Below are positions 37-58,911 of a stretch of 64,000 nucleotides of DNA, piece after piece. How positions within the stretch are numbered: the first letter of the stretch is position 1; every line of letters begins with the position of its first letter. The notes beneath the pieces were generated by a model. That model searched no databases, had not been told where the DNA came from, and was given only the letters and a program-made list of their open reading frames with translations. A program made the position numbers and the translations under genes. Source of the stretch: Scolanthus callimorphus. Taxonomy: Eukaryota > Cnidaria > Anthozoa > Actiniaria > Edwardsiidae. The stretch lies in contig CM066924.1 of assembly GCA_033964015.1 (NCBI GenBank), positions 10,938,625-11,002,624 on the forward strand, in the 5' to 3' direction.

Positions 37-1842
37 TTACTGTTCCCTAACATCCGCTTGATCATACAATTCCTTCAAAAACTTTGCCGCCGCCTTGAAC
101 GTCTTAGCGTTATCCGAAACAATCAACGAAGGTGTACCCCGCCTCGCACAAAACCTACGCATGCAGCGCAAAAATGTAGGCGTGGTCAAATCCTCCACTA
201 ATTCTAAATGTACCGCCCTTGTAACACAACACGTAAACAATGCAATATACGTCTTTTCCATTCCATCTTTCCCTTTCACATAAATAGGCCCTCCAAAATC
301 TAGCCCCGTTTTTTCAAAACTTGCTGCCTGAGACGCCCTAAAATTTGGTAGCGCTGCTACTCCCGGTGCATCATACGCCCTTCCTTGTACGCGCTTGCAC
401 GCTACACACTCACTTAAGAACTTCTTAACAGTTTGCCTCCCTTTTGGCACCCAATATCTCGACCTCAGCTCCGCAAGTGTTGCTCTAACCCCAGTGTGAC
501 TCACTCTCACATGACAACTCTCAATTACAAGCCTAGTAAACCGATGTTCCCTTGCCAAAATGACCGGCGATTTCGTCTCCGTATCTAGCTCTGAGTTCCC
601 AAGCCTACCAAAGCACTTCAACACTTCGTTCTCCTCCCTAAGCCCAAGATCCTTAGCAAGTTCCTTGTAGTACATCTCCGCCTTCAGCTCTGCTTGAACT
701 GATTTTACCCACTCAACCTCGGCCTCTAATAAGTCACTTGCCTTCAACAAACCTGTCTTTCTTTCCACACCTTTCTTCCTTGCCCTGAGATTAAACACAA
801 ACCGCTTCACCCATGCCGTTACTCGCAACAGCTTCGTCACATTGCTAAAACGCTCAATGTCGATTACACTCGCGACCCCCTGCGGCACAACCTCATTCAC
901 AACTCCTACTGTCACTCGCTTACACTCTTCAGTAACACTATCCGATGTCTCAAGATACTCACCCCTAGCTGGCCACGCCTCCTCAGGTTGCGACAACCAC
1001 GTGGGACCCCTGCGCCACAACTCACTCTCAACCAGGTTAGACGCCAGCTCACCACGAGACCCGATGTCTGCAGGATTCTCTACGCCTGGACAATGCCCCC
1101 AGTCAGCCTTATTAGTCAGCTTCAAAATCTCGTTTACCCTCTGCCTTACGAATTGCTTCCACTCGCCCTTATTATTTATCCAACAGAGAGCAGTCTTACT
1201 ATCAAGCCAATACCGCTTCGCACTCAACTCAATCCCGCTCAATGCACCTACAACCGTCGCCATTAGCTGCGCCAGCACTCTGCCAGACATCAGTTCCAAT
1301 CTGGGAATAGTTTGGGCCTTCAACGGTGCTATTCTCGTCTTCGAAGTCAACAACTCAACATGATACGCACCATACAGCTCACATACACTATAAATTACAG
1401 CACAATAAGCTTTCTGACTAGCATCCCCAAAACCATGCAATGAGTACTTCACATCGCCATTCATACCATACACACATCTCGGCACTCTTACCTCCTTCAC
1501 TCGCTTCAAATCTTCTAACCAAGCTACAAATCTCTTCTTTCTCTCTTCATTCAACTCCTCATCCCAACCAACCTTTTCCCTACACAAGTCCTGAAACAAC
1601 ACCTTCATGCCAACCAATATAGGACTCGCAATTCCCAATGGATCATACATTCCCGCCATTACCTTAAGCAAATTGCGTTTCGTAGCCTTCAAATCCGCCG
1701 CCTTTAGCGCTAACCCTTCCAAGTCAAAACAAAACTCATCCTTCCTGACAATCCCACTCATGCCCAAGCACCTTATCAACCGTTTCGCTTGCCACGCCCA
1801 ACACAGATTTTGCATACGTCGCATCGTCCCCACAATCCGCAT
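37..1842 (-). pseudogene. BEL/Pao A17/RNase H region and integrase
   Basis: A 601-residue open segment. Residues about 55-290 match the Peptidase_A17/RNase H-like region (GFGDASQKAYCAVIY, AQTIPRLELMSG). Then comes an integrase zinc-binding domain with His-His-Cys-Cys (near residues 450-490, ending ECVACKRV). The start of the DDE integrase core follows (TGLDFGGPIYVKG with the first Asp, IVSDNAKTF with the second). A stop at 34-36 cuts it before the third catalytic acidic residue. This is the longest uninterrupted piece of the element. The integrase would insert the cDNA into the genome in an intact copy. Confidence 0.92.
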
Positions 1843-1896
1843 TCCCGGCTAATTTCTCATTCTCTCCGATCTTTTGCATCACCGCGCTATCATTAC

Positions 1897-2577
1897 TCAA
1901 CCACTCCTTAATTTAAATCCACCTGTTGCCAATCTCTTCTTCGCCTTTTCTTGTAACTCAAGCGCCTCTCCTGTCGACTCTGCGCCCGAAACAAGATCAT
2001 CAACATAAAAACTCTCCTTCATCACTCGCACAAACTCTGGATCCTCCCCAGCGAATGTGTCTAAGTGATACCGCAATGTGGCATTCAGCAAAAAAGGCGA
2101 ACAGTTTACTCCAAACACCACACGACAAAATCTGTACACTACTGGCACCAATTCATCCTTCTCGACATCTTCGACCCACAAAAACCTCAAACTATCTCTA
2201 TCTGGTTCATCGACCTCAATATTGAGAAATGCCTTCTCAATATCGCCAACAAGCGCCACTTTCTTATTCCGAAACCTGACTAAAATGTCATACAACAATG
2301 GGGTCAAAGCTGGCCCAGTATGCAAACAATCATTCAGCGAAACACCCCCTTTCTTGTCTTTTGCATTCGCTTGATAGACGACCCGGCATTTAGTGGTTTT
2401 TGCATGTGTACGAATTACAGGAAAATGCGCCAAATAATGCACCTTATTCGCGCTCTCTAGCTCAAAAACCCTCTCGATCACTCCCGCCTCTTCCTGTTGT
2501 TTTATAATAGCGTTATACTCTGCACGCACTTCCGGTTCTTTTTTAAGCCTTGTCAACAACCCCTTTAACCTCGTCAC
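1897..2577 (-). pseudogene. BEL/Pao reverse transcriptase fragment
   Basis: A 226-residue segment with RT fingers and palm motifs: CRVVYQANAK, VALVGDIEKAFLNI (first catalytic Asp) and the catalytic box FYVDDLVSG. This makes it an RNA-dependent DNA polymerase of the BEL/Pao type. The segment stops at about 1897, just after the palm; the following polyprotein part resumes in another frame at 1842. The catalytic residues are intact, but the isolated fragment lacks a start and thumb/connection, so it is not expected to be active. Confidence 0.93.
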
Positions 2578-2616
2578 GCCATTGTGATAATTACTTGCTA
2601 AACACTCATGTCCTTC

Positions 2617-2859
2617 CTACCAAGGCAATTTCACGCAATATCTCTCTCCCGTGAACTCAATCCCATCTTTTAACGCTTCATGCACTACATTCTCTTCACG
2701 AATTCCTAACGTCTCATAATCCCACAACTTCTGCACATTACTCTCCAACTCGGCATCAACTCTCACTTCACTTGCCCTCTCACATCCAACCAAATTTACG
2801 CAACTCACTACTGAATTAACACTGCTCATGCCCTCTTTTGGTTTTAGAGGCCCCGACAA
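2617..2859 (-). pseudogene. BEL/Pao pol linker between protease and RT
   Basis: An 80-residue piece containing FWDYETLGI-type residues (seen as LWDYETLGIREENVVHEALK) and a segment ending in YCVKLPW. Both are typical of the spacer between protease and reverse transcriptase in BEL/Pao elements, where the polyprotein reads toward the first RT motif. It is in a different frame from the protease on its right and the RT on its left, confirming decay. Confidence 0.75.
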
Positions 2860-2904
2860 AACCCACCCAAGACTAGTTTCTATTGCAACCGGCTCATCCT
2901 TTTC

Positions 2905-4065
2905 TCACCTAATAGTCCGAAAACCACAAAGTATGCAAATGGGGATGTCTACTTTCCGCAACTCGACATGCTCATTTCTAATTTGTGTTATTCTAGGAAC
3001 TTCAAAAGCCTCGATTTTTTGTCCCTTCCCCCCATTAATTGGTAGCACTTCTAGATCAAAAACTTCTCTCAACCCAGAATCCTTTTCCTTTTGCCCAAAA
3101 GCATTAATTTCTAACCATTCCTTTCTTTTCCCCTTAAGCCCAACGGACTTAACTGTCTTACTTGTAACAAACGAGCGATGACTTCCCGCGTCAAATAAAA
3201 CTCTAATTCGCGCGGTTTTCTCCCCCCTTAATACTGCTTGTGCAGTTTGTAAAGCTACGCGCCCTATCGCGCCACCCACGTGCATTGCATGACTCTCTTG
3301 GTTGCCCTCTCTAAATGTGTTATCAGCACTGGAACCGTTACTATGGTTACCTCCCTCGCTATCTCTTTCTCCCCTCTTATCGCATATCGAAATGTGATGC
3401 TTTCCTGAGCAAATACTGCAACCTGAACTAGAAAAACAATCGCTAGAGATATGGCCTTTTTTGGCGCAAATATAGCATCTCCCATACTTACGAAATAGCT
3501 CCTTCCTTTCCTTGTTAGTTTTAACTACGTTACAGTCCTTATGCGCGTGCTGCCCCGTGCAAAATGCACAAAAGAGTCTTTTACTAGTTCCTGTCAACAG
3601 AGCACTTGCCGATGATGGTTGTTGTTGATCTTGTCGTCGCGGCCTTTCTCCTTGTTTAACAAGCGTGCACTGCTCACGCAACTCAATTTCCTCCCTCATC
3701 TCCGCCAACAACTCCTCAATTGTCCACTGCTGTGATTGTTTCCCTCTCGTCATAATGAGACGAACACTCTCTGGTATTTTCTCCAAAATAGACGGCACCA
3801 CAATACCCTCGTACGCACCCGCGTCCACTCCTAGCGCTTGTAAACTTCGATGTTTCGCTTCTAGTACGTCAATCAACCTCCTTAGTCCCGTCACGTCACG
3901 ATCATTCTGTACCGCTTGTATCTTTAACATCTCGTTGATATGAGCCTTTTTCAAATTTTCTGGCTTTCCGTAGCGCTTTTGTAGGATCTCTACCGCTGCT
4001 TCATAGTTTGCTGACGTTAAAGATAGACCAGCAATCGTTGCTTTCGCCGCTCCAAAAAGTGCCAT
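2905..4065 (-). pseudogene. BEL/Pao gag (rest of DUF1759), zinc knuckles and DUF1758 protease
   Basis: The 386-residue segment begins inside DUF1759 (about residues 1-130). It then carries three CCHC zinc knuckles in a row at about residues 175-230 (one is CYICAKKGHISSDC) and a retroviral-type aspartic protease at about 285-370, with the active-site tripeptide seen as DAG in RVLFDAGSHRSFV. Gag packages the RNA and the protease matures the polyprotein. Asp-Ala-Gly is an accepted variant of the DTG/DSG active site. The open frame ends near 2905 before the protease-RT linker, so the downstream enzymes are out of frame. Confidence 0.9.
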
Positions 4066-4067
4066 CT

Positions 4068-4259
4068 TTAAATAGCTAAACTATCCACTAGAGGAATGTT
4101 GGTATTTCCGTGGACATTACTTTGGAAGCTATCCCAAAACTCTTGCCATTCCTCTATCCTCCCTCCAAATTTACTCAATTGTAACTTTGGCAGTCGCACA
4201 CGTACTTCGTGACTAATCCCAGTCGTGCTCTGACTACTTGGCGTCGAGGGCTGACTCAT
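4068..4259 (-). pseudogene. BEL/Pao gag, start of DUF1759 domain
   Basis: Contains the sequence LPKLQLSKFGGRIEEWQEFW, the signature opening of DUF1759 (gag of BEL/Pao elements). A stop at 4068-4070 ends the segment in the middle of the domain. The domain continues in another frame from 4065, so a frameshift of one or two bases separates them. The segment is a fragment of the same gag as its neighbours, not an independent gene. Confidence 0.85.
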
Positions 4260-4920: not shown

Positions 4921-5085
4921 AAGTTTGAATCCCGTCCACTGGCGGACGGGATTAGTGATTGGTCGAGCGCCTGTCAGAGAACAATAGGACGTTATGACAC
5001 AGACCAGTCACTCTTTAATTTTGTCACGTACTTTCATAATAGAAGTCAAATGTTGGCTTTCCGTCCGGAAATCCAAAATAAAAAA
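4921..5085. other. Spacer between BEL LTR and TIR unit
   Basis: 165 bp with no gene. A GTTTGAATCCC stretch at 4923 resembles a tRNA T-loop but no cloverleaf can be drawn around it; a short palindrome (cccgtccactggcggacggg) follows. Confidence 0.5.
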
Positions 5086-6707
5086 GGGTGTGGATAAAAC
5101 GCGGATCCGGACTGGCGGACCGGCGGAATGGCGGACCGGCGGACTGGCGTACCGGCGAAAAAAAAAAAAGAGAATAGCGTAAAAACGCAATTTCCCTCGT
5201 TATCGCGATTAACAAAACGCGCCGCGTTGTCTAGCTGGCAGGCCTGGGGATCGGGGAACTTGATCTAGGTAACTGATAACTTATAAACGCTGGTTATTGT
5301 TTTTGCGGGCTCGCAAACTCTCCTTACATGTTTCAACAATGGCGTCCACAAGTACCCTGTAAGTAGTATTTCAAATCTGTTTTCATCGTGTTTAATCGTT
5401 TCTTATTTCACATGACTAAAGTTTTAATTCCACTCTCACGCTTTGTTTCTTCCATTTTTTGTAGAATTACGCTTCCCGTTGAGGAACATCTTGCAGGATT
5501 GGGATTAGAAGTCTCGAAAAGTCCTGGAGATGGCCATTGTCTTCTTCATTCTATTTGTTCAAGTTTGGCAAGTGAGCACGCAACATTTATCTCGTCTGCT
5601 GACTTGATCAACCGATGTCGCAGAGAAATAGTCAAATCTGTTGAAAATTACAACCTGTTTTACACTGGTCCAGATTTGATTGCGGAATTCGATAGGTATT
5701 CAGCAACCAAAGAATATGACCTTGAAGTTGTAGATATATTACTACAGGTCTTGGCGAACGTTATTGAAATGAACCTAGTAGCCATCGACATCCAAAGAGC
5801 TGGAGGCGAGCGTGCCATGGAAACTGTGTATACTGTGTATACTGGATGTAGTGATCCATTGGATTCTTCTATGGTAGGATCACTGAGGATATTGAGACAA
5901 GGGGAACATTTCGACGCCCTTGTGCTCAGGCGAATGGGGATGAATGACAGGTAGGTAATTAATCAACCTTTAGGGACCGAGTAAGAAACTAGTAACATTC
6001 CTTTCTATGCGAATGCTCGGGGCTATAGCGCTATATGAAGCAGAAGTTTTGTGTAAAATTGTCATCATGTTCTGAATAACGGGAGAGTTTGTTTTGTGAA
6101 TATCGCACAATGACTTAAGAATATGGGTACGTGCCTACAATCTGAAAGTGGGATGTTATTGAATGACAGGCTCTAGGAGGCGGCTGTTTTACCAAGGATA
6201 GGTTGTTGTTTTTGTTGTTAATTTTGTCCTGATATTTATTTAAACAGATAACAGCATCATCAACCGGGTGTGGTTGCACGAATGGGGGGCTGAACTGTGT
6301 GTAGAGTAGTTTCAGAGATTAGCTCTCCACATTCCCTCAAGGGCATCTCCTGTTACCCCGGAAATTTTACAACTATGAGAACAACGGCCCTAAGCAACAT
6401 AAGACGCAATGAACAACAGTTACGTTGCGTACTATTTTCTTCATGACATTCTTTGACGTCATCTGTGTATCTATTACAGTACACACACGCACGTAAAACG
6501 AGATCTTTTTGTTAAATCACGCACTCATTCGAACATTTTGAAGTGCGCGCGCATCCCGATGCAAGCAGCGTTGTTTGTTTGTCGAAAAGTAATACATTAA
6601 TATTGAATTGTATATATCAATGTTTTTGAGAAAATGTTTCGAAATTTTTTTTTCCGGTACGCCAGTCCGCCGGTCCGCCAGTCCGGATCCGCGTTTTATC
6701 GACACCC
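5086..6707 (+). mobile_element. TIR-bounded unit carrying an OTU protease gene
   Basis: The interval starts with GGGTGTGGATAAAACGCGGA and ends with the reverse complement of GGGTGTCGATAAAACGCGGA. Both ends run on into the same GC-rich motif (repeats of GGACTGGCGGACC) and then a poly-A or poly-T run, giving terminal inverted repeats of roughly 70-80 bp. The flanks are A-rich (nine bases aataaaaaa against aaaagaaaa), so a 9-bp target duplication is possible but not convincing. No transposase is visible, so the unit would be non-autonomous. It holds one recognisable gene, the OTU-domain protein at 5339-5954. Confidence 0.7.
5339..5954 (+). CDS. OTU-family cysteine protease (deubiquitinase-like), two coding exons
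   Basis: Exon 1 is 5339-5358 (ATG to a GTAAGT donor), the intron 5359-5464 ends TTTTTTGTAG, and exon 2 runs 5465-5954. The splice keeps the frame and gives 169 residues. The catalytic box PGDGHCLLHSI places Asp29 and Cys32, and GEHFDALV places His155, the classic OTU arrangement. OTU enzymes cut ubiquitin chains or related conjugates. The reading is short (a bare OTU domain with almost no extensions). The stop coincides with a strong donor (CAG|GTAGGT at 5950), so a further exon is possible; splicing to the acceptor before 6247 also stops at once. Reading straight from the ATG at 5388 is less likely because it translates the intron. Confidence 0.8.
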
Positions 6708-8339
6708 AAAAGAAAACGATCGCTTTACAGCGTGGCTTTGTGCGAGCTATTCGAGGGGCGATTGGCGGTTTTGCCAATGCAGATGGGCTTCGGGGAAAAG
6801 TCTGCTCTACTCCAATAGCTATTGTGGTTTCTTTCTCTCTTAGAGCGAGGGAGAACGACCTCGCTCGCTCGCTGTCGGCCTTAGACTTGCTCCAAGTCGA
6901 CCTCATAGGATACCCGAAGTGAGCGAAGCGAGTAAAGCGAGTGGGCCGCGAAGCGGCGAGCGAGGACTTTGAGAAAGTCTACGTCGGCCTAAGAGGGGAG
7001 GCGGAGGAAACCATTTGCTCCCAGGTATAAGTCTGCTCGTGAACTGTAGCCCAATCTATTTCTGTCATCGTTATCTCACCCGAAGAAATTAGACTCGGAG
7101 AAAATATGTACTGCTACAGAGTTGAAGAGCGACAAACTATTTGAGATCCTAAGAAATCCATCCGAATTTATCTATGAGTCTCGCTCATCGGCGAAGGAAT
7201 TGCTGTTTATACAAATTCACCACCGCTAGCTTGCGCAGATTGAAACTCTGATTCTTTCATCTAGTTTTATGCTTTTGCTGAGTTTATTGGAACTTAGAAA
7301 ACCTCCCGTAAGCTACGGTGTGCTATATGACTTAAATTCGGCCTGATCAGCTCTACAGACTGAAGAAAACTCCAAGCCCAACTCACACAACTGGATTGCA
7401 GTTTTGCTTTTGCCTTCAAGTATTTTCCAAAGAGGTATGTGTTTTTTCCGGAACAAACAACTAGTAAAACTCGATGAAACACCGATACCTCGAAAGGCCG
7501 GCATCGCTAAGCCAAACTCAGAGCCAAACTATTGAATTTGCGTCCCTTCGGCGAACTCAAATTCCCGATTAGAACTGATCCAAGTTTCGAGTGGGTTTGT
7601 TTTGATCGAACCACTTGATCGACATGACAGCTTGAAGCATTTTTGCGGTTCTGATTAGCCCGTGAAGAATGTGTGACAATGTTGTTGGCAGTCATGCTGG
7701 GTTGGGGGCGGATGTGAGAATCACCTAGTTTTCGGGCAGGCGGTTTTTCTCTCCTTTCCTCCTGCCCCCTCCCCTTCGCCCGACTTTTGCGCTCGCCCCC
7801 GGGACCGCGCGCCTCAAAATTCCAAGATGGCGCCCGATCATCGAACGGGGGGACCGGGTTTTCCGCGATAAAAACACTCAGTACCGCCTGCAAGCAGGCT
7901 AGCTGCGATGTTTTGAGAGTTGCAGTGAAGGGTTTGGCGTTTAGAAACAGTTTCAGGTAGAGAGTTAACAGTTGGATAGTTAAAAGATTTTTGTCCAGTG
8001 CTAGAAAAAGTCATAATCTATCTGCAGTTTCTGACCCTGCTAAATTATTATTCATTATATTTATTATTATTGACCCTAAATTATATTATCGTTTCGTCAA
8101 CCTGAATTACTCGTGATCTGTACTATTTATTCGTATTTATTAGTATTCCTATATATATTCCTATTTAGTTATGGAATTTTGGTGCTTAATTGGTGCTTAA
8201 TTGTTGTTAGATCGCATATATTTTGCAGAAATATTAAAAAGGCAGTGAAAAAAAAAAAATTTTTTTGTAAGAAATCCTGTTTTCGAAGACAGTTTAATTG
8301 ATCCTTACAAAAGCCAAGCAAGATTCTGAGGCATTGTCA
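6708..8339. other. Repeat-like non-coding stretch
   Basis: No supported gene. 6840-6960 is rich in GCGAG/CGCTCG direct and inverted motifs (gagcgaagcgagtaaagcga and similar) as often seen in transposon ends. 7735-7905 is a GC-rich block with pyrimidine runs that ends in a small palindrome (gcctgcaagcaggc) and looks like the end of a repeat. The ORFs in it (for example 7507-7893) have low-complexity composition and no domain. 8030-8340 is AT-rich. Confidence 0.45.
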
Positions 8340-13440: not shown

Positions 13441-13670
13441 TTTACCTAGAAACTCAATTCAATTCTATTGATCAACCCCAACCTTAGTCTCCTACGCAGC
13501 CCGTGTTTTGTGTCGGTCACGCAACGCTTCCCTCCCCACACACGACTCCTTGCTTTTGGATCACATGCCTTTCCCTTTGTTATTTGATAGACAGTGACAT
13601 GATTTCTTTAGCCAATTAAATTCGGTGCATTGTTATGTTTCAACCAATCTTGTGTCCGTAAACTGTAAAC

Positions 13671-14165
13671 ATGTCAAAAATTGCGGAAGCACATTCACCC
13701 GCTCAAATTTATCTACGTCTTTCTGTGTGGGTTGCGAAAGGTCACGGAAGAAACTCTAAGAAATTAGTCGATGGGAATCGCTGTTTTATTTCTTCCACAG
13801 TAATAGAAAAGAAACGCAAGTTCTACAGAGATATATTTGTTGCTGTTGTTGTTGTTGTTGTTGTACTCATACACTTCGTTTGTAATGTTAAAACAGAAAA
13901 GTTCCATAGATATGAAGTGAGGAATTACTCGGCGACTGATAGTTTGTTTATTTGCAAATCACGCTGCTTCAAAGGTCTCACTAAATGTCAGCGAGCATTA
14001 GCCGACCTTCCCTGGATTAAGCAGGACATTGGGGAACTATTTGGCAATCGAGAGACACGCTCAATGATATGTAGATCATCCAGGCTAACAGCCGGACTAC
14101 AACAACGACAACAACACGGCCCATGCTCGAACGAAGGTGATCAAACACATCAAACACGTCGATAG
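13671..14165 (+). CDS. Unknown ORF carried by 9-bp-TSD element
   Basis: 164 residues from an ATG 186 bp inside the element. It contains a run of valines from a GTT microsatellite (near 13842-13863), then RHYEVRNYSATDSL-like residues (seen as RYEVRNYSATDSLF), then CQRALADLPWIKQDIGELFG. The C-terminal part from the NYSATDSL motif onward is also open in the second copy (50207-50446, minus strand), with few changes. The valine run may be a transmembrane-like stretch or just a microsatellite. I do not recognise the family. It could be a captured host exon rather than a transposon protein. Confidence 0.4.
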   Translation: MSKIAEAHSPAQIYLRLSVWVAKGHGRNSKKLVDGNRCFISSTVIEKKRKFYRDIFVAVVVVVVVLIHFVCNVKTEKFHRYEVRNYSATDSLFICKSRCFKGLTKCQRALADLPWIKQDIGELFGNRETRSMICRSSRLTAGLQQRQQHGPCSNEGDQTHQTRR

Positions 14166-14172
14166 AGTTCAA

Positions 14173-14448
14173 TCAAATAAGCGGCTTTCCAAAACCTGTA
14201 GACAAATTAACTAGTACATCCTTTTTTCTGTTATAATCTGGATATCCTTCTTCTGATGAAAATGTAGCAAGGAAATATGGAATTTTTCTCTGACAAAACC
14301 GAGAGCTTCTTCTAACTTTCAACGAAGTGCGAACTATGTCATAGTTTTGAATTTCAATTGCCTTATCCGATTGGTCAATTTGAAGTGGCGCGAACGGTTC
14401 CCCGGAAATGGAAACCAATTGCTGATTGGTCAAATCGGGGAAAGGCAT
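14173..14448 (-). CDS. Helicase-like fragment carried by 9-bp-TSD element
   Basis: 92 residues from the ATG at 14448, converging on the ORF at 13671-14165 with 7 bases between stops. The C-terminus reads KKDVLVNLSTGFGKPLI, close to the RecQ-type helicase motif I (TGxGKS), with Pro in place of Ser and the protein ending right after it. The same reading is conserved at 49930-50199. Only the region up to motif I is present, so it cannot be an active helicase. Likely a captured first exon of a RecQ-like gene; the family call is tentative. An in-frame extension to 14583 would leave the element and is not chosen. Confidence 0.5.
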   Translation of the reverse strand: MPFPDLTNQQLVSISGEPFAPLQIDQSDKAIEIQNYDIVRTSLKVRRSSRFCQRKIPYFLATFSSEEGYPDYNRKKDVLVNLSTGFGKPLI

Positions 14449-14798
14449 GTGATCCAAAAGCAAGCAGCCGTGTGTGGGGAGGGAAGCGTTGCGTGACCGA
14501 CACAAAACACGGGTGCGTAGGAGACTACCCCAACCTTTCCCTGGAGAATTCAAATCCCTCCCCTTTAGTTTGTTGAGAATCATTATCCGAGTTAAATCCC
14601 TACGAATAACAATGGAAACCGCGTCAACTGTAAACTAACTGTAAGCAAAGATAATCACTAGTTCGTTATAGAAACGATCCAGGAAAGCTAATGCGAATAT
14701 TTTTTGTTGCGTGACTAAGGGTTGTAATAACGGTATTTGTAGGTTCCATATCGTAGTCGATGAACTTCTCCGATAAACATTGACTAAACTTAGGGGTA

Positions 14799-37655: not shown

Positions 37656-38344
37656 ATGGCAGACGGCTTCGATGCGCTAGAGAAAGGTGAATTTTCGCCG
37701 GTTGGAAGCCCGGATCGTGCAATGGTTGTTTACCCACTGGACGAAACTTGCTAAGAAGTGGTTTCTCTTCGAAGACAAATAGCGTCTTTACAACTTGAAA
37801 TGCAAGAGGTAAGGTCTCAGAAGAGGCAGAATTCAATGATAAAACATCAGATGAAAGGACCACAAACCTTTGCCGGAAAAGACTCAGCTCTGAATGTGAC
37901 GGATTGGGCGAGGGACATAGACTATTTAATTCGCACTTGTGGTGCTGAAAGCAATAATGTCGAGGCCTTAGACTTGATTGAAAGATATGTGGGGGGCAGG
38001 CAGCGAAAGTATTCCGAGAAGAGAAGAACAAAGGAAAGAATTACAAACAAGTATTAGAGAGATTGCAAGCTTTGTTTGGGGGGGTTGGATATCAAGGGAC
38101 AGATCCTTTGCAAGTTTTTTATAGTAGAAAACAAGGGAAAGAGGAGACACCTCTAGACTTCTCGATTGAACTTGCCGAACTTTTGACAATATCAGAGCGG
38201 AAGCGAGGCAAACCTTTCATGGAGCGCAATAAGACGCTTATAAGTGTTTTGTCTGAGGGCCTGGCAGACGAGTATTTTAGAATGCAATTAAGGCCCTTGA
38301 TCGCTATGCAGTTAATATTTGAACACTTCAAAACGAACTGCTAA
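37656..38344 (+). pseudogene. Gypsy gag
   Basis: The likely start is the ATG at 37656, 34 bp after the LTR. An in-frame TAA at 37752-37754 breaks it, after which the same frame continues (VSLRRQIASLQLEMQEVRSQ, coiled coil; then KGPQTFAGKDSALNVTDWAR) to 38057. A frame change leads to GGVGYQGTDPLQVFYSRKQG and EETPLDFSIELAELL, a capsid-like region of Gypsy gag, ending at 38344. Two defects therefore prevent translation of a full gag. Confidence 0.8.
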
Positions 38345-38379
38345 GGAGGGAGCAGGACAAGAAGAACCATCTTGTTACT

Positions 38380-38766
38380 ATGAAGGGAAGGGCATCTCAG
38401 CCCCAAGAAACCCCCGTAGACCAGCCGCAACCTGTTAGATACTTCAACAGGCCCCCCCTACCCCTGGTACCCCAAGTCCCCAATGCCCCAGTCACAGACC
38501 AAATTCTTCAGGCAATCCAGAGCCTGGAAAGGGAAGTGAAGGAACAAGCAAAAGAGATTCAGTTTTTGAAAGAGTCCAGCAATCAGACCCCAACCCAACC
38601 CACCCCAAATGTTTCAAGCTCAAGACCCAGAGGCCCTAGGGGAGGGGGGATAATCTGTTTCCGCTGTAATAAGCAGGGTCACATCGCAAGAGACTGCCGG
38701 GAGGATATTCCCCCCCCCCCCACCCGGCCTCCTCTAGTCAGGGAAACTAGGGATGCCTGTGGGTGA
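38380..38766 (+). pseudogene. Gypsy nucleocapsid with zinc knuckle
   Basis: Proline-rich leader, a short coiled coil (IQSLEREVKEQAKEIQFLKE), then a single CCHC zinc knuckle CFRCNKQGHIARDC at about residues 92-105. The stop is at 38764. Nucleocapsid binds the element RNA. It is in a different frame from the capsid-like part. Confidence 0.88.
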
Positions 38767-39119
38767 TAGTTACCGAGTTCAATCCCACGCTAGAACCAAT
38801 TGTCGTGAAGCCGTATGTCCATCTAGCCGATGTGTATGTAGCCGACGAAATCTTAGGGGAAGCAGCAGACGAGCAGGTTAATTCTCCCTACCCTAGTAAC
38901 TCAGCAGAGGGGAGGGCGGGGGCTAAGGTCACAGTTCAGTCCCAGACCACCCTTCCCCACCGGACCATAAATCTCTGGACTTAAAGCTAGAGGAATCAAC
39001 CTTACAGGATTTTGAGCAGGAGCGTCTGCAGGACTTGCTAAATAAATACCCGGATGTTTTCTCAGGGACACCTAGGGATTATGGGAAGACCGCTACCGTG
39101 AGGCACAGAATACCACTAG
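38763..39119 (+). pseudogene. Gypsy protease-RT interval, protease not found
   Basis: ORF 38763-38984 (PIVVKPYVHLADVYVADEIL) and the frame after it (LQDFEQERLQDLLNKYPDVF, the usual pre-RT linker) span only about 350 bp between the zinc knuckle and the RT. No DTG/DSG active site is visible, so the protease seems deleted or unrecognisable. A C-run near 39141-39149 coincides with a frame change into the RT frame. Confidence 0.6.
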
Positions 39120-40709
39120 TTGACCCCACCCCCTTCAAGATCCCCCCCTCGGCGTGTGAAACCCCGTGATTATAAGGAACTAATGGAAACACTGCGTCAA
39201 ATGGAGGAGGATGAGATTATCGAACCTAGCCACAGTCCATATTCTTCCCCGATTGTTATCGTGCGCAAGAAAGATACTTCAGTACGGGTATGTGTTGATT
39301 TTCGTGTTCTTAATGCTAAAACCGTCCCTGACTCTTTTCCAATGACAAAAGTTAATGATGCACTGGAGGCTTTGGGTGGGGCACGCTATTTCACCACGCT
39401 CGATCTAACGTCAGGTTATTACCAGGTTGTAGTCGATGAAGAGGATAAAGCTAAGACAGCCTTCTCAACTCCTATGGGTTTGTTCCAGTACAAGCGTATG
39501 CCCCTGGGACTCATCAACGCCCCAGCGACTTTTCAGCGTCTTATGCACACAGTGTTTAAGGATGAGGTGTTTGATAAGGTGCTTATATATTTAGACGACA
39601 TCATAGTGTTTTCTACGACTTTTGAAGAACACCTGGAAAGACTTCAGATCGTATTTGAACGGCTGCGAACTCACGGACTGAAACTGAAGCCGAGTAAGTG
39701 TTGCTTTATCAGAGAATCGGTCAACTATCTTGGTTACGTAGTGTCGTCTCAGGGATTATCTACAGACCCAGAGAAAATCGACAAGGTACTTGGATGGAAA
39801 ACGCCAACTAATCAGGATGAGCTTCGTCAGTTTCTAGGTTTCACAGGATATTATCGCAAATTTGTACCTAGTTATTCCTTGCTCGCATCTCCACTTTACC
39901 GTCTCATCTCCGGTGACGCTAGGAAGAAGAAGGGTAGCCGTGATCCTGTTCCTTCGGTACCTTTCGAATGGACTAGCGAGTGCGAATCAGCATTTAGATA
40001 CCTCAAAGAGAAGTTGACTTCCGCCCCTGTACTGGCATTCCCCGACTTTGACAAGCCTTTCGTTGTGCAAACGGATGCGTGCGGTACTGGCCTGGGAGCA
40101 GTGCTTGCTCAGGAACAGGACGGTCACGAAAGAGTCATAAGCTATGCTAGTCGTGCGTTGACACCCGCGGAATCTAGGTACCCGACACACAAACTAGAGT
40201 TTCTTGCTCTTAAGTGGGCGCTGACGGATAAGTTTTATGATTATCTATATGGTAACAAGTTCACAGTGGTAACTGATAATAATCCGTTGTGCTTCGTGAT
40301 GACAAGCGCAAAGCTGGATGCGTGCCGCCAACGCTGGGTCGCTGAACTGTCCGCCCTTCAATTCGAGATTCTGTATCGTCCCGGAAAGAATAATGCTAAC
40401 GCAGATGGACTGTCACGGATACCCCACGATAGTGTGGCTAAGTATCTCGACGACGCGGCGACTGGTCACCACCTGCCGGAACAGAGTGCGGCGCAGCAAG
40501 TGCCACGTAGTTGTCACACAGACGGCGTCTGGAGCAGGTTGATCTCGCAGACGCACAACGTAGAGATATTGACATTCAACAAGTGCTGGAATGGCAAACA
40601 CGAGGTAGTCGCCCTGCAAAGCAGGAGAAACAAGATGCCCACCTTACCAGAGAGGCAAAGTTGTTACTGCGCCAATGGGACAAGCTCGCAGTCGAGGACA
40701 ATGTTCTAG
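39120..40709 (+). pseudogene. Gypsy reverse transcriptase and RNase H
   Basis: 529 open codons. RT motifs: VCVDFRVLNAKTVPDSFPM, FTTLDLTSGYYQV (first catalytic Asp), FKRMPLGL-type motif (YKRMPLGLINAPATFQRLM) and the YLDD box at about residue 159. RNase H from about residue 310: QTDACGTGLGAVLAQE, an acidic Glu in THKLEFLALKW, TDNNPL, and NANADGLSR. All catalytic acids are seen. The open frame begins after the frame change at the C-run, without its own credible ATG, and runs out of frame near 40490 where the next segment overlaps. Confidence 0.95.
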
Positions 40710-41479
40710 TCAGAAAGATACAGGATCAGCGTCATGGTACTGTGCGACAAGTTGTACTTCCCAAGGATCAGCGAGAGACAGTGATTGCGAGTTTGCACAA
40801 TGCAGGTCATTTAGGTTTTGATCGTACCCTAGAACTTGTCAGGATGCGTTTTTATTGGCCTAAAATGTATCGTCAAATCAAAGCATTTTGCAGCACTTGC
40901 AAGCGTTGCGACCTTCGTAAACCGGGACCAGAGAGACCTCCGCTCCACAGCATCCATACAAGCGCACCGCTGGAGCTGGTGTGTATTGACTTTCTGACAC
41001 TTGAAAAATGAAAAGGTGGCTTCGAAAACATCTTAGTAGTCACAGATCACTTCACGAAAATAGCGCAAGCTTATCCCACTAAAGATCAGAAAGCGCACAC
41101 AGTAGCGAAAATACTCTGGAAGCGTTATATATGCGTGTACGGTATACCTAAACAGATACACTCTGATCAAGGCCGTGACTTTGAAAGTGAACTCATCAAG
41201 GAGTTATCACGCCTCATGGGCATGAAGAAAAGCAGAACTACACCCTACCACCCCCAGGGGAATGGCATAACCGAGCGCGTCAACTCAACTCTACTCAATA
41301 TGTTAGGAACCCTACGCCCTAGCGAGAAGGCGGACTGGAAGGAACACGTGGAGACGCTTACTCATGCTTACAATGCTACACGACACGACACGACTGGATA
41401 CTCGCCCTTCTTTCTCATGTTCGGCAGACATCCTAGACTACCGGTGGACCTTGTCTTTGACTCAGGGGGGGGAGGGTGA
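40511..41479 (+). pseudogene. Gypsy integrase, zinc finger and core
   Basis: First segment (40511-41011) has the H2C2 zinc finger HNAGHLGFDRTLELVRMRFY...CSTCKRC and CIDFLTLEK with the first catalytic Asp; a stop at 41009-41011 follows. The next reads NILVVTDHFTKIAQAYPTKD, HSDQGRDFES (second Asp) and NGITERVNSTLL (Glu), so the DDE triad is complete across the break. The reading ends after a G-run at 41465-41477, where the frame shifts again. Confidence 0.92.
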
Positions 41480-42193
41480 AGAGGAAGCATGTGAGACCAC
41501 AGAAGAGTATGTGCTAGCAATGGGGGAACGTCTCAAAGAGGCTTACTCAAAGGCAGCCTCGTCATCGGCCGCTGCCCAGCGCAATCAAAAGAAGCCGTAC
41601 GACAAGAAAGCTAAAGCCACTGAGTTCAAGCCCGGCGACAGAGTACTCGAACTGATCAAAGACTACCGGGAGAAGCATAAGATAAAGGATAGGTGGCGAG
41701 GCCCATACATAGTCGTGAAGAAGATGGAAGGAAGCCCAGTCTAGTCATTGAAAGAGAGGAAGATGGCGTTGTTCGGACCATTAATCGGAGTCTTCTCCGT
41801 CAGTGTGTGTTTATTTCTCGGGACGAGTTTGTTGCAGCAGGAGAGCAAGACATCTAGGAAGTCGACGAAGGGTCAGAGCAGTCAGCAACCAAGGCGAATG
41901 CTCAACTTTCGGATGGACGCTCTCTTCAGACTTCAAAGGACTCGGGATTTATAGATATATCTACTGATGCTATACAAGGAGAAGCAGTGGAAGCGGATGA
42001 TGTAAGCTCGGACGGAGAATCGGGAAGCTTGGACCCGCAACCTGGTCGTCCACAGAGGCAACGACGTCCACCCGAGAAACTGAGGGACTATGTCTGTTGT
42101 GGCCAAGATGTGCGTTCGAGCGATTGGTATCAGCGGAAGATATCGGAGGGAGAGGCTCTTTACAAGAGGTGGCGAAGGCAGCTTAAGCTGTGA
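41480..42193 (+). pseudogene. Gypsy integrase C-terminus and tail
   Basis: After the G-run the frame continues as NQKKPYDKKAKATEFKPGDR and RWRGPYIVVKK, the GPY/F domain, and stops at 41744. 41987-42193 encodes an acidic then basic tail (RPQRQRRPPEKLRDYV) common at the end of Gypsy polyproteins. Several frame changes lie between the two. Confidence 0.82.
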
Positions 42194-49680: not shown

Positions 49681-49929
49681 TGGGGTTGCAGTCTCACTTC
49701 CTTACTACTAGCGTGTGTACTATCGCTGCCCTATAATAATTATTCTTTTTAAATAAGAGGTTTAACAGGTTCCGGTATAAAAGAGCGGGCCCGGGGGCCT
49801 TTGATTGTCAGTTGTCACTCAACTGTCGTACAATTAACATCTCTGTGACTAGTCTCCTACGCAGCCCGTGTTTTGTGTCGGTCACGCAACGCTTCCCTCC
49901 CCACACACGGCTGCTTGCTTTTGGATCAC

Positions 49930-50199
49930 ATGCCCGATTTGACCAATCACCAATCGGTTTCCATTTCCGGGGAACCGTTCGCGCCACTTCAAATTGACCA
50001 ATCGGATAAGGCAATTGAAATTCAAAACTATGACATAGTTCGCACTTCGTTGAAAGTTAGAAGAAGCTCTCGGTTTTGTCAGAGAAAAATTCCATATTTC
50101 CTTGCTACATTTTCATCAGAAGAAGGATATCCAGATTATAACAGAAAAAAGGATGTACTAGTTAATTTGTCTACAGGTTTTGGAAAGCCGCTTATTTGA
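49930..50199 (+). CDS. Helicase-like fragment, copy 2
   Basis: 90 residues, from the ATG equivalent to 14448, ending KKDVLVNLSTGFGKPLI as in copy 1. The two copies differ at only a few residues (for example a two-residue deletion after the Met). The shared Pro in the TGxGK(S) motif and the shared stop mean the truncation was already in the common ancestor of both element copies. Confidence 0.5.
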   Translation: MPDLTNHQSVSISGEPFAPLQIDQSDKAIEIQNYDIVRTSLKVRRSSRFCQRKIPYFLATFSSEEGYPDYNRKKDVLVNLSTGFGKPLI

Positions 50200-50206
50200 T
50201 TGAACT

Positions 50207-50446
50207 CTATCGACGTGTTTGATGTGTTTGATCACCTTCGTTCGAGCATGGGCCGTGTTGTTGTCGTTGTTGTAGTCCGGCTGTTAGCCTGGATGATCTA
50301 CATATCTTTGAGCGTGCCTCTCGATTGCCAAATAGTTCCCCAATGTCCTGCTTAATCCAGGGAAGGTCGGCTAATGCTCGCTGGCATTTAGTGAGACCTT
50401 TTTGATTTGAAATAAGCAAACTATCGGTCGCCGAGTAATTGCTCAC
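50207..50446 (-). CDS. Unknown ORF of 9-bp-TSD element, copy 2
   Basis: 79 residues matching the C-terminal half of 13671-14165 (NYSATDSL, then KGLTKCQRALADLPWIKQDI). The N-terminal half is out of frame or lost in this copy. Confidence 0.35.
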   Translation of the reverse strand: MSNYSATDSLLISNQKGLTKCQRALADLPWIKQDIGELFGNREARSKICRSSRLTAGLQQRQQHGPCSNEGDQTHQTRR

Positions 50447-50803
50447 TTCATATCTATGGAACTCTTATGTTTTAACATTACAAACGAAGTGTATGAGTAC
50501 AACAACAACAACAACAGCAACAAATATATATTGTAGATCTTGCGTTTCTTTTCTATTACTGTGGAAGAAATAAAACAGCGATTCCCATCGACTAATTTCT
50601 TAGAGTTTTTTCCGTGAGCTTTCGCAACTCACACAGAAAGACGTAGATTACTTTGAGCGGGTGCTGAAATGTGCTTCCGCAATTTTTGACATGTTTACAT
50701 TTTACAGACACAAGATTGGTTGAAACATAACAATGCACCGAATTTAATTGGCTAAAGAAATCATGTCACTGTCTATCAAATAACAAAGGGAAAGGCATGT
50801 GAT

Positions 50804-53859: not shown

Positions 53860-54168
53860 CTAAAATGAAGTCTCATCTCGTCGATTCAATCCGTCAGGCT
53901 CAAGGGTACCAGCACGTAGGATGAGTGTGGCCTCTCTTGCCTTACGAATTGAATCTCGATTAGTCATTAATTTTTCAAGGGGAATCAATTGCATGTCAGA
54001 TGTTTTGTGATTGGGTGTCGATAGAAAATGTTCAGCGGCGGTGGTGGGTTTAGATTTACATTCGGGCTTGTCTATTTTGCGATGATCATTAAAGCGTTGT
54101 CTAAGTTGGCGTTTAGTTTCTCCTATGTATTGCAAGTTACAGCGTTTGCATTGGATCATATAAATCAC
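53860..54168 (-). CDS. GIY-YIG endonuclease of Penelope-like element, partial
   Basis: 102 residues: MIYMIQCKRCNLQYIGETKR is the signature of the PLE GIY-YIG domain, with RQRFNDHR following and DSIRKAREATLILRAGTL near the end. Upstream, the same frame (to about 54262) continues with CPYIENGQTTYTFFTTGETR, the zinc-finger-like linker. The endonuclease nicks DNA to start target-primed reverse transcription. The ATG used is internal; the true reading came from a longer RT-EN protein. Stop at 53860, a normal C-terminus length. Confidence 0.88.
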   Translation of the reverse strand: MIYMIQCKRCNLQYIGETKRQLRQRFNDHRKIDKPECKSKPTTAAEHFLSTPNHKTSDMQLIPLEKLMTNRDSIRKAREATLILRAGTLEPDGLNRRDETSF

Positions 54169-54455
54169 ATTTTTAGTGTCGCAAGTTATGTGAGAGTTTA
54201 TAAAGCGAGTTTCACCGGTCGTGAAAAAAGTATATGTTGTCTGTCCGTTTTCTATATATGGGCAGGTTAGGCAATTTTGTCACGCCACTCGATCTGTTTG
54301 AGTCTGTCAACAAGATGGGAGATCGATAGATGGCTTTGGATGGAGGGAGAAATTCGGTTCCTTTTCATGAAAATCATCTTCCGAAACCCTTGGCAAGCAA
54401 AATGTGAATTCCTTATGGACTTGGGCAAGACTTGTTTTAGTTTTCATTCTTTGTT

Positions 54456-57075: not shown

Positions 57076-58130
57076 TTAATGAGACTCATTAGATTCTTCA
57101 GCATCTCGAACCAGCGCATTAAAACGCTCGAGAATATCAAAACAAAATTTGGCAGTTACCTTTACGACAGACTCGTCACACATCGACAATAAGTAAACGC
57201 ATAGATTACGCAAACCTAGTTGGCCAAAGGAAACATTCAGTTGCAAAATGTCAGTCAAACATAATTCTCTTAGATGAACAAAAGACGCATGGTTACAATA
57301 CATCAAATAATGCGTCTCATCTCCAATTTCATTAAGATTGCAGAATGAACATTTCCTAGAGTTATAATCAATATTAGCATATCTGCCAACTTCCACTGGT
57401 AATCTATGTGCGGATAAACGCAGTTTCGAAACTGCTTGACGATGTCGAAAATTAGTAACCAAGACTAAATATTTCTCAAAGCCAGGCTAGACTTCAAAGA
57501 TCTAAACAGCCTTAGTTTTCCACCGGTCCCTTGACGTACGTTAGTCCTCCAGTGCTCGCAAAACATATCATATAATTGTGTTTTAATCTGTTTGGACACA
57601 TCCTTAATCTGTTCAAAAGGAATTGCAATACTATCTAAACATCCAAAACCACACAAAGACAAGAGGAAGTTAGAAAAAGCAACCCCACGAAAGTTTGATG
57701 ACACACACCAAGAAGCCGCTTTTCCGACGAGACTGTCCCGGAAAATAGGATTCGTTATCCGTAACCAATACCTGACAATAGTACAACCGATTTGAACTAT
57801 CAGGGGTACCCTACCTAATTCTGCATACACAGCCATATTCGTAGACTTTAAGTGTATGCCTAAAATCCTCTTACAAAATTTTAGATGCAACCTCTCTATG
57901 TCACCTAAAACAGAGAAAAGTTTCTGCTTAAACATCTCCAAAGAAGATAACCTGCCTAACATGTAAGCACCCCAGACCTCACAACCATATAATAGCACGG
58001 GAGACACAAGCGAAGAAAATAATTTCAACATCACCTTCACCGGAATTTTCTCAACATTGGTGAAATGGGCAAAAAGACCATGATATGCCCTTAAAGCTTT
58101 ATTATATAGGCACTTCCGTGCAAAATTAAA
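57076..58130 (-). pseudogene. LINE thumb and C-terminal domain
   Basis: 57465-58130 reads MLKLFSSLVSPVLLYGCEVW and RLHLKFCKRILGIHLKSTNM. 57076-57462 reads KCSFCNLNEIGDETHYLMYC, the CCHC-type C-terminal zinc motif. A stop near 57463 separates them. The terminal stop at 57076 is followed by about 80 bp of 3' UTR-like sequence. Confidence 0.85.
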
Positions 58131-58857
58131 AAAAATTAAAAAAATGAAACACAATACCAAGATAGGTATAATGTTCCACGCACTCTAAAACCTGGCCACT
58201 GAAAGACCAACGAGAGAACAAGTATGGGCACCTCTGAGCACGCGTACCAAAAACTAACACTTTCGATTTTTTCATGTTAACGCTTAACTTCCAGTGCTTT
58301 GTGTAAATAGCCAATCTATCGAGACAACGCTGAAGACCCGACTCCGATTCAGATAAAATGACTAAATCATCCGCATAAAGTAAGCAACTAAGATCAAAAC
58401 CAGCCAGAGATACCGGAGAACAAGAAGCATCAAATATGCCAGGGATATCATTGACAAACAAATTTAAAAGCGTAGGACTAAGATTACAACCTTGTTTCAC
58501 GCCAATTTCGGATCGAAAAAATGGAGTCACACCCTCATTCAACTTCACAGCCGCCTTACCAGAAGAATACATGCTTAAAAGTATTTTTATAAAGTTCTTA
58601 CTGCAACCGCACTGTATAATCTTATAAAACAAACCGTCTCGCCAAATACTATCATACGCTTTGCGAAAATCAATAAAACAGGCAAACAACGGCTTATGCT
58701 TTTTCTTGTACGAATCTAAGAGAGCTTTCAGTACAAGTACATGGTCAGACGTCCTAAAACCCTTGCGGAAACCTATCTGATTATCATTCATAAGGCCATT
58801 TTCTTCCAAAAACCTATTGAAACGGGAGTTTAAGATTAAAGTAAAAAACTTCCCCAA
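58126..58857 (-). pseudogene. LINE reverse transcriptase
   Basis: 243 codons with RFLEENGLMNDNQIGFRKGF, FACFIDFRKAYDSIWRDGLF (motif A Asp), SEIGVKQGCNLSPTLLNLFV (motif B) and LLYADDLVILSESESGL (YADD). The RT core is intact over about 730 bp, then shifts frame at an A-rich run near 58125-58142 into the thumb part. It is the best preserved RT of the LINE set in this window. Confidence 0.93.
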
Positions 58858-58911
58858 ACAACTACTGATACAAATACCCTATAGTTTCCAGGGTCCATTC
58901 TATTACCTGAC

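Follow-up and report, generated by a model that had tools for sequence, protein, structure and literature searches.

A probable Mutator-like element with a complete, spliced OTU protease gene in the genome of Scolanthus callimorphus

Proteases of the OTU and Ulp1 types recur in unrelated mobile elements. In the account of Bao et al. 2010 (PMC2836005), Ginger1 is an inverted-repeat DNA transposon with introns, the transposase of which is integrase-like and may end in an OTU domain; its target duplications are 4 bp long (CCGG/CCGT) and its ends read TGTNR. OTU cysteine protease domains also occur in Helitrons (PMC2836005) and in LINEs. For cnidarians, the listing in a survey of Mutator elements (PMC6446971) assigns an 'Ovarian Tumour Gene' to the group of MuDR-6_HM from Hydra, an element that is entered there without a terminal inverted repeat and with one open reading frame. 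A different kind of precedent is given by the Pack-TIRs and Pack-MULEs of animals, in which sequence that is not of transposon origin lies between the terminal inverted repeats (TIRs) of one family and occurs in more than one copy (Tan et al. 2021, PMC8277862). In that work the fly element Ssk-FB4 is called a Pack-MULE on the ground of its 9-10 bp target duplications, and identity of at least 90% to a parent sequence outside the ends is used as a filter for young cases and not as the definition of a Pack-TIR, counts without the filter being given too. Protein-coding Pack-MULEs are called rare in the literature, as far as its relevant passages go, and a study of sea anemones describes an insertion of about 15 kb as 'suggestive of a pack-MULE' (PMC9842752).

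The locus described here lies in a window of 64,000 nucleotides, which is the whole stretch of DNA that was analysed. Its features are collected in Table 1. With a probability of about 0.8, the segment 5086-6707 is a non-autonomous Mutator-like element, i.e., a Pack-MULE or animal Pack-TIR, that holds a complete captured small OTU gene of cellular type. Like the Pack-TIRs of PMC8277862 it has non-transposon sequence between the TIRs of one family and more than one copy, and like Ssk-FB4 it belongs with target duplications of mostly 9 bp in its family; it differs from the Pack-TIRs portrayed there in that its small spliced gene is present as a whole, with the frame intact, and in that it lacks a parent at 90% identity or more. 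With Ginger1 it has in common that an inverted-repeat DNA transposon contains OTU sequence and introns, but in the window the OTU protein stands alone with 169 aa, the duplications of the family are mostly 9 bp and the ends begin with GGGTGT. Membership in Ginger1 was therefore rejected, since target site, ends and the architecture of the protein all differ. Helitrons and LINEs resemble the window element in carrying an OTU cysteine protease within mobile DNA, but they are of another element class, and the window element has neither a rolling-circle nor a reverse-transcription gene. MuDR-6_HM, a cnidarian Mutator element with an ovarian-tumour gene according to the listing in PMC6446971, resembles the probable Mutator-like element of the window in these respects and differs in being entered without a terminal inverted repeat. 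Gene-carrying elements of this sort are thus already known, and the window element adds a well-documented case to them; no OTU-carrying Pack-MULE was found in the open-access literature searched.

Table 1. Coordinates of the element, its flanks and its gene in the window
Feature	Position	Strand	Basis
Left flank, a multi-copy repeat and the element's insertion target	4951..5085	.	genome search with joined flanks
Left target-site copy AATAAAAAA, imperfect	5077..5085	.	reading of the target-site duplication; empty sites
Whole element (1,622 bp), non-autonomous inverted-repeat transposon with OTU gene	5086..6707	+	empty sites in paralogous copies of the flank repeat; left boundary is that of the C15 copy
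Left terminal inverted repeat, GGGTGTGGATAAAACGCGGATCC followed by 8-bp units of CGGACYGG type	5086..5166	+	alignment of the ends; family members
Exon 1 (20 nt), MASTST plus 2 nt, ending at a GTAAGT donor	5339..5358	+	gene model; equivalents at four other loci
Phase-2 intron (106 bp), GTAAGT...TTTTGTAG	5359..5464	+	same position in sibling and three paralogues
Exon 2 with OTU domain (D29, C32, H155 of the 169-aa protein), stop at 5952-5954	5465..5954	+	
Piece of an unrelated high-copy, partly palindromic repeat in the element's 3' part	6423..6519	.	
Right terminal inverted repeat, shorter than the left by two 8-bp units	6645..6707	-	alignment of the ends
Right target-site copy AAAAGAAAA	6708..6716	.	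reading of the target-site duplication; empty sites
Right flank, in which the multi-copy repeat of the left flank continues	6708..6820	.	genome search with joined flanks

The surroundings of the element contain other mobile sequence. Pieces of a BEL/Pao-type retroelement (Peptidase_A17, RVT_1, Integrase_H2C2, DUF1759) occupy 37-4080 on the minus strand, and Gypsy-like pieces (RVT_1, RNase H, Integrase_H2C2) 38323-41744 on the plus strand. A GIY-YIG domain, possibly Penelope-like, is found at 53860-54279 (-) and LINE-like reverse-transcriptase reading frames at 57076-58878 (-), and two inverted near-copies at 13560-14527 and 49850-50803 are 95.5% identical over 973 columns.

An earlier note on this DNA had reported inverted repeats of 70-80 bp around the gene, which is roughly right. 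The arms 5086-5139 and 6654-6707 are 94% complementary over 54 nt without gaps, and when a 16-nt gap (two of the 8-bp units) and a 2-nt gap are admitted, the alignment extends over 81 nt on the left and 63 nt on the right. Within the window the chance expectation for such ends is E ~1e-19. This value, together with 80 end sites in the genome against 3 for the reversed pattern, excludes a chance inverted repeat. To fix what was inserted, consider the two flanks joined without the element (4951-5085 + 6708-6820) and searched against the genome from which the window comes (597 Mb, 302 contigs). The junction was spanned by 30 of the 40 scored matches, at 76-95% identity; two more were the window itself and eight were partial. 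Eight of the junction-spanning matches were read, and all eight run uninterrupted, with the element absent. From this follows that 5086-6707, the boundaries of which are exact, arrived as an insertion, ends and gene as one unit; the inserted segment is discrete, and its ends are specific to a family. Compared with the joined flanks, each of the empty sites read lacks 6 nt, namely six A beside the element's left end. The two target-site copies, AATAAAAAA and AAAAGAAAA, agree at 7 of 9 positions, so that the duplication is imperfect, and the six extra nucleotides fit either a 9-bp duplication that has lost 3 nt or a 6-bp duplication with a substitution.

These observations bear on the simplest alternative, a host OTU gene that merely happens to sit between two unrelated repeat ends. 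OTU paralogues without such ends do exist in the genome, as this alternative would have it, but the empty sites speak of a single insertion of ends plus gene, which contradicts it, a second copy with the same left boundary lies inside another repeat, and the ends recur elsewhere as inverted pairs. This explanation is hardly credible.

The family to which the ends belong was defined by a genome-wide search with a 20-nt end pattern, at most two mismatches being allowed and the reversed pattern serving as control. When sites up to 8 kb apart are joined, the 80 sites found combine into 26 inverted pairs, of which 21 are of the window type, with the end sequence GGGTGTGGATAAAACGCGG, and five of a sister type, GGGTATCGG, to which 24 of the 80 sites belong. 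The earlier note had held that the gene would be a host gene beside repeats if the end motif occurred only as a dispersed GC-rich microsatellite and the OTU gene were single-copy and syntenic in relatives. The motif forms paired inverted termini and is no such microsatellite, and this reading was rejected. Perfect direct repeats flank 15 of the 21 other complete window-type pairs read (11 of 9 bp, three of 10 bp and one of 8 bp) and are absent from six (L017, L019, L021, L029, L032 and L071); L017 resembles a duplicate of L018, and L019 and L021 resemble duplicates of each other. None of these 21 pairs has OTU sequence in its interior. Ungapped inverted repeats of the other measured pairs are 41-65 nt long. 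Family members without the OTU gene are about 0.9-1.25 kb, except for longer ones with inserts, such as L071 (2.9 kb, window-type ends). BLAST comparison of the OTU-less copies gave matches of at least 700 bp for 100 of 153 pairs, with a median identity of 91.5% and a range of 78-98%. In the most similar pair, identity reaches 98.3% over 1,194 bp, so that the family moved fairly recently. The only sister pair read, L072 (C2:15808345-15815447, 7.1 kb, GGGTATCGG ends), has no target duplication; as a candidate for a transposase element it was rejected, the reading frames inside it resembling those of a LINE. An 18-base core of the ends had no match in viral contigs, and in prokaryote contigs five matches, none of which extends past the core, with about seven expected by chance as an estimate. 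A phage search gave no match, and the end sequences had none in published papers.

The element is assigned to a superfamily by its ends and by the length of the target duplications in its family. According to PMC6446971, MULEs typically duplicate 8-11 bp of the target, and the 15 pairs with perfect duplications lie at 8-10 bp. The TIRs of MULEs are usually long, and those of the window element, 54 nt ungapped and 63-81 nt gapped, are long in this sense and short for the superfamily. The family thus bears a Mutator-like signature. The MULE-transposase domain PF10551 has 33 matches in the genome (77 of 77 candidates scored), all of them at least 45 kb away from every one of the 80 end sites.

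The second copy of the OTU gene is found on C15, the copy being placed at 23265892 and the OTU match of the genome search at 23266315. This copy begins at the very first base of the end at which the window element begins, so that end and gene stand together at a second locus, a check that the earlier note had proposed. Over aligned positions the two copies agree at 98.2% upstream of the gene and again downstream of it, at 98.1% within the intron and at 98.8% within exon 2. The left flank on C15 is a high-copy repeat unlike that of the window; among the matches listed it has 39 other copies, all of which reach the insertion point, and the three that were read run uninterrupted where the element begins. 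In about 17 kb downstream of the C15 copy there is neither a right end nor the continuation of the flank repeat as known from the three copies read. Since the right end was not found over this distance, the C15 copy, one-ended as it is, may not be a complete element. Homology between the two copies ends at window position 6410, and beyond this point the window has its piece of another repeat. Downstream of the OTU gene on C15 there is an old tandem duplication of 78.6% identity (L039 3998-4336 and 4866-5241), which suggests that the original sequence on the 3' side is more fully preserved on C15 and that the window element has been rearranged in its 3' part. Elsewhere in the genome the repeat of 6423-6519 gave 808 candidates, of which 40 were scored; eight matches about 1.34 kb apart in C13:15244392-15253933, with one gap of about double size, resemble a tandem array.

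The gene itself starts with an ATG at 5339. The catalytic residues D29, C32 and H155 that the earlier note had named are present in the 169-aa translation, and the 106-bp intron it had proposed is supported by comparison, for in the sibling on C15 and in three paralogues an initial exon of 20 or 23 nt is likewise followed by a phase-2 intron in the matching position; the splice nonetheless remains a prediction from sequence. The predicted protein contains the OTU domain PF02338 (Pfam 1.1e-7, 32.9 bits against a curated cut-off of 23.3), and its structure model (pLDDT 90.5) has the OTU fold. The closest structural match is the deubiquitinase OTUD3 (4bou), with only 18% identity. The C15 protein has three extra residues directly behind the active-site Cys, and the window protein three extra residues further on.

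Where the gene came from is indicated by its relatives. A six-frame OTU search of the genome, with all seven candidates scored, gave five loci of the family: the window, C15, C3, C108 and C59. The catalytic D, C and H are invariant in all five. Identity of the window protein to those of C3, C108 and C59 is 43, 37 and 34% in the six-frame comparison and 39, 35 and 33% by tblastn. These three genes start with MAAPLANL, MAATSTY and MSSTCTL, respectively, where the window gene has MASTSTL, their introns are 611, 101 and 1,392 bp long, and in the 9.9 kb read around each there are no window-type ends. A decayed fragment of the gene's 5' part at C1:19025322 matches window 5285-5517 with 82.6% identity over 242 columns; it has lost the ATG, its acceptor is changed and it contains an early stop, and no window-type ends occur in the 3 kb read there. 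Because relatives without ends share the tiny first exon and the intron position, the window gene probably derives from a spliced family of cellular type and was then captured by the element. A parent copy without ends at 90% identity or more was not found, the best match being the C1 fragment and the intact paralogues standing at 33-43% amino acid identity.

Another conceivable source of the OTU domain is a protein of some other mobile element. A first search gave one weak relative, an alignment-based search 102 proteins, many of them of retrotransposon type, and a search with the five genome OTUs seven. In viral contigs there were four pattern matches for OTU, none of them confirmed. Exo_endo_phos is present in 8 of the 65 OTU proteins scanned and RVT_1 in one; P0020, P0035 and others among the eight are public proteins in which OTU is fused directly to LINE-type endonuclease domains. 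These fusions, and the Ginger1 transposases that may end in OTU in the account of PMC2836005, are what would be expected if the OTU domain had come from a retrotransposon or a Ginger1-type transposase. However, the gene shares its intron with the cellular-type paralogues, the ends and target site misfit Ginger1, and the 102 OTU proteins match nothing in 5000-6800 beyond the OTU exon by tblastn. The gene also falls outside the branch with other OTUs in a tree made by a quick method from 69 of 114 sequences (101 have a long enough domain, four lack a recognisable motif): the five genome OTUs and P0103-P0106 and P0109 are set apart from 59 others, several of which are LINE fusions, with an SH-aLRT of 95, P0109 being flagged as a long-branch outgroup. 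Such a source is very improbable, and a LINE or Helitron origin was rejected, the gene being of cellular type with the shared intron.

Another course of events would be that the OTU gene was an original resident of an autonomous MULE lineage, from which the window element arose by deletion of the transposase. The ovarian-tumour entry for the MuDR-6_HM group in PMC6446971 agrees with this, as does the position of the gene, which adjoins the common end in both the window and the C15 copies. Against it, the 18 OTU-less relatives compared share no interior with the window element, and no transposase remnant is recognised in 5954-6653 as judged by stop-free stretches, the longest of which is 67 codons. 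Moreover, the C3, C108 and C59 genes, its closest relatives, are not bounded by such ends, and the listed matches to MULE transposase are distant from them (275 kb on C59, for example). Descent from a resident gene is unlikely.

Capture by a Pack-TIR accords with the following. Both window ends come from one inverted-repeat transposon family, the interior is of non-transposon nature and differs from the family interiors compared, with OTU paralogues outside such ends, and the whole was inserted as a unit, its own target duplication being imperfect. It would not pass the 90% parent filter of PMC8277862. What was captured would comprise the first exon, the intron, the OTU exon and the region upstream of them. 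In a plausible sequence of steps, the interior of a family element would have been replaced by the OTU gene by one of the routes proposed for Pack-TIRs, gap filling or template switching, and a transposase acting in trans, probably of MULE type, would then have moved ends and gene jointly. That the gene is mobile cargo of a non-autonomous inverted-repeat transposon, as the earlier note had suggested, is supported by the empty sites, the paired inverted ends and the second copy on C15.

What the gene does for its carrier is a separate matter. The open frame is kept in both copies. Their coding sequences differ by two synonymous and seven nonsynonymous changes (pS 0.018, pN 0.019), and three of the seven sit in a last codon that follows a 1-nt insertion in C15. 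The comparison shows no sign of selective constraint, nine differences being too few to exclude it. That the protease shields the element from host degradation, as the earlier note had supposed, is speculation. A helper role is conceivable and quite improbable: the upstream region captured along with the gene would drive its transcription, and the protein would assist the element family, e.g., by stabilising a transposase that acts in trans or by blunting ubiquitin-dependent silencing. If this were true, it would be an independent recruitment of OTU by mobile DNA, parallel to those in Ginger1, Helitrons, LINEs and the OTU-bearing Mutator element of Hydra. With its empty sites, the locus documents at base level what appears to be a Mutator-like element of an animal in which a spliced protein-coding gene is present whole and intact. 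Since this gene can be compared with copies without ends in the same genome, the question whether it is a passenger or a helper becomes testable.
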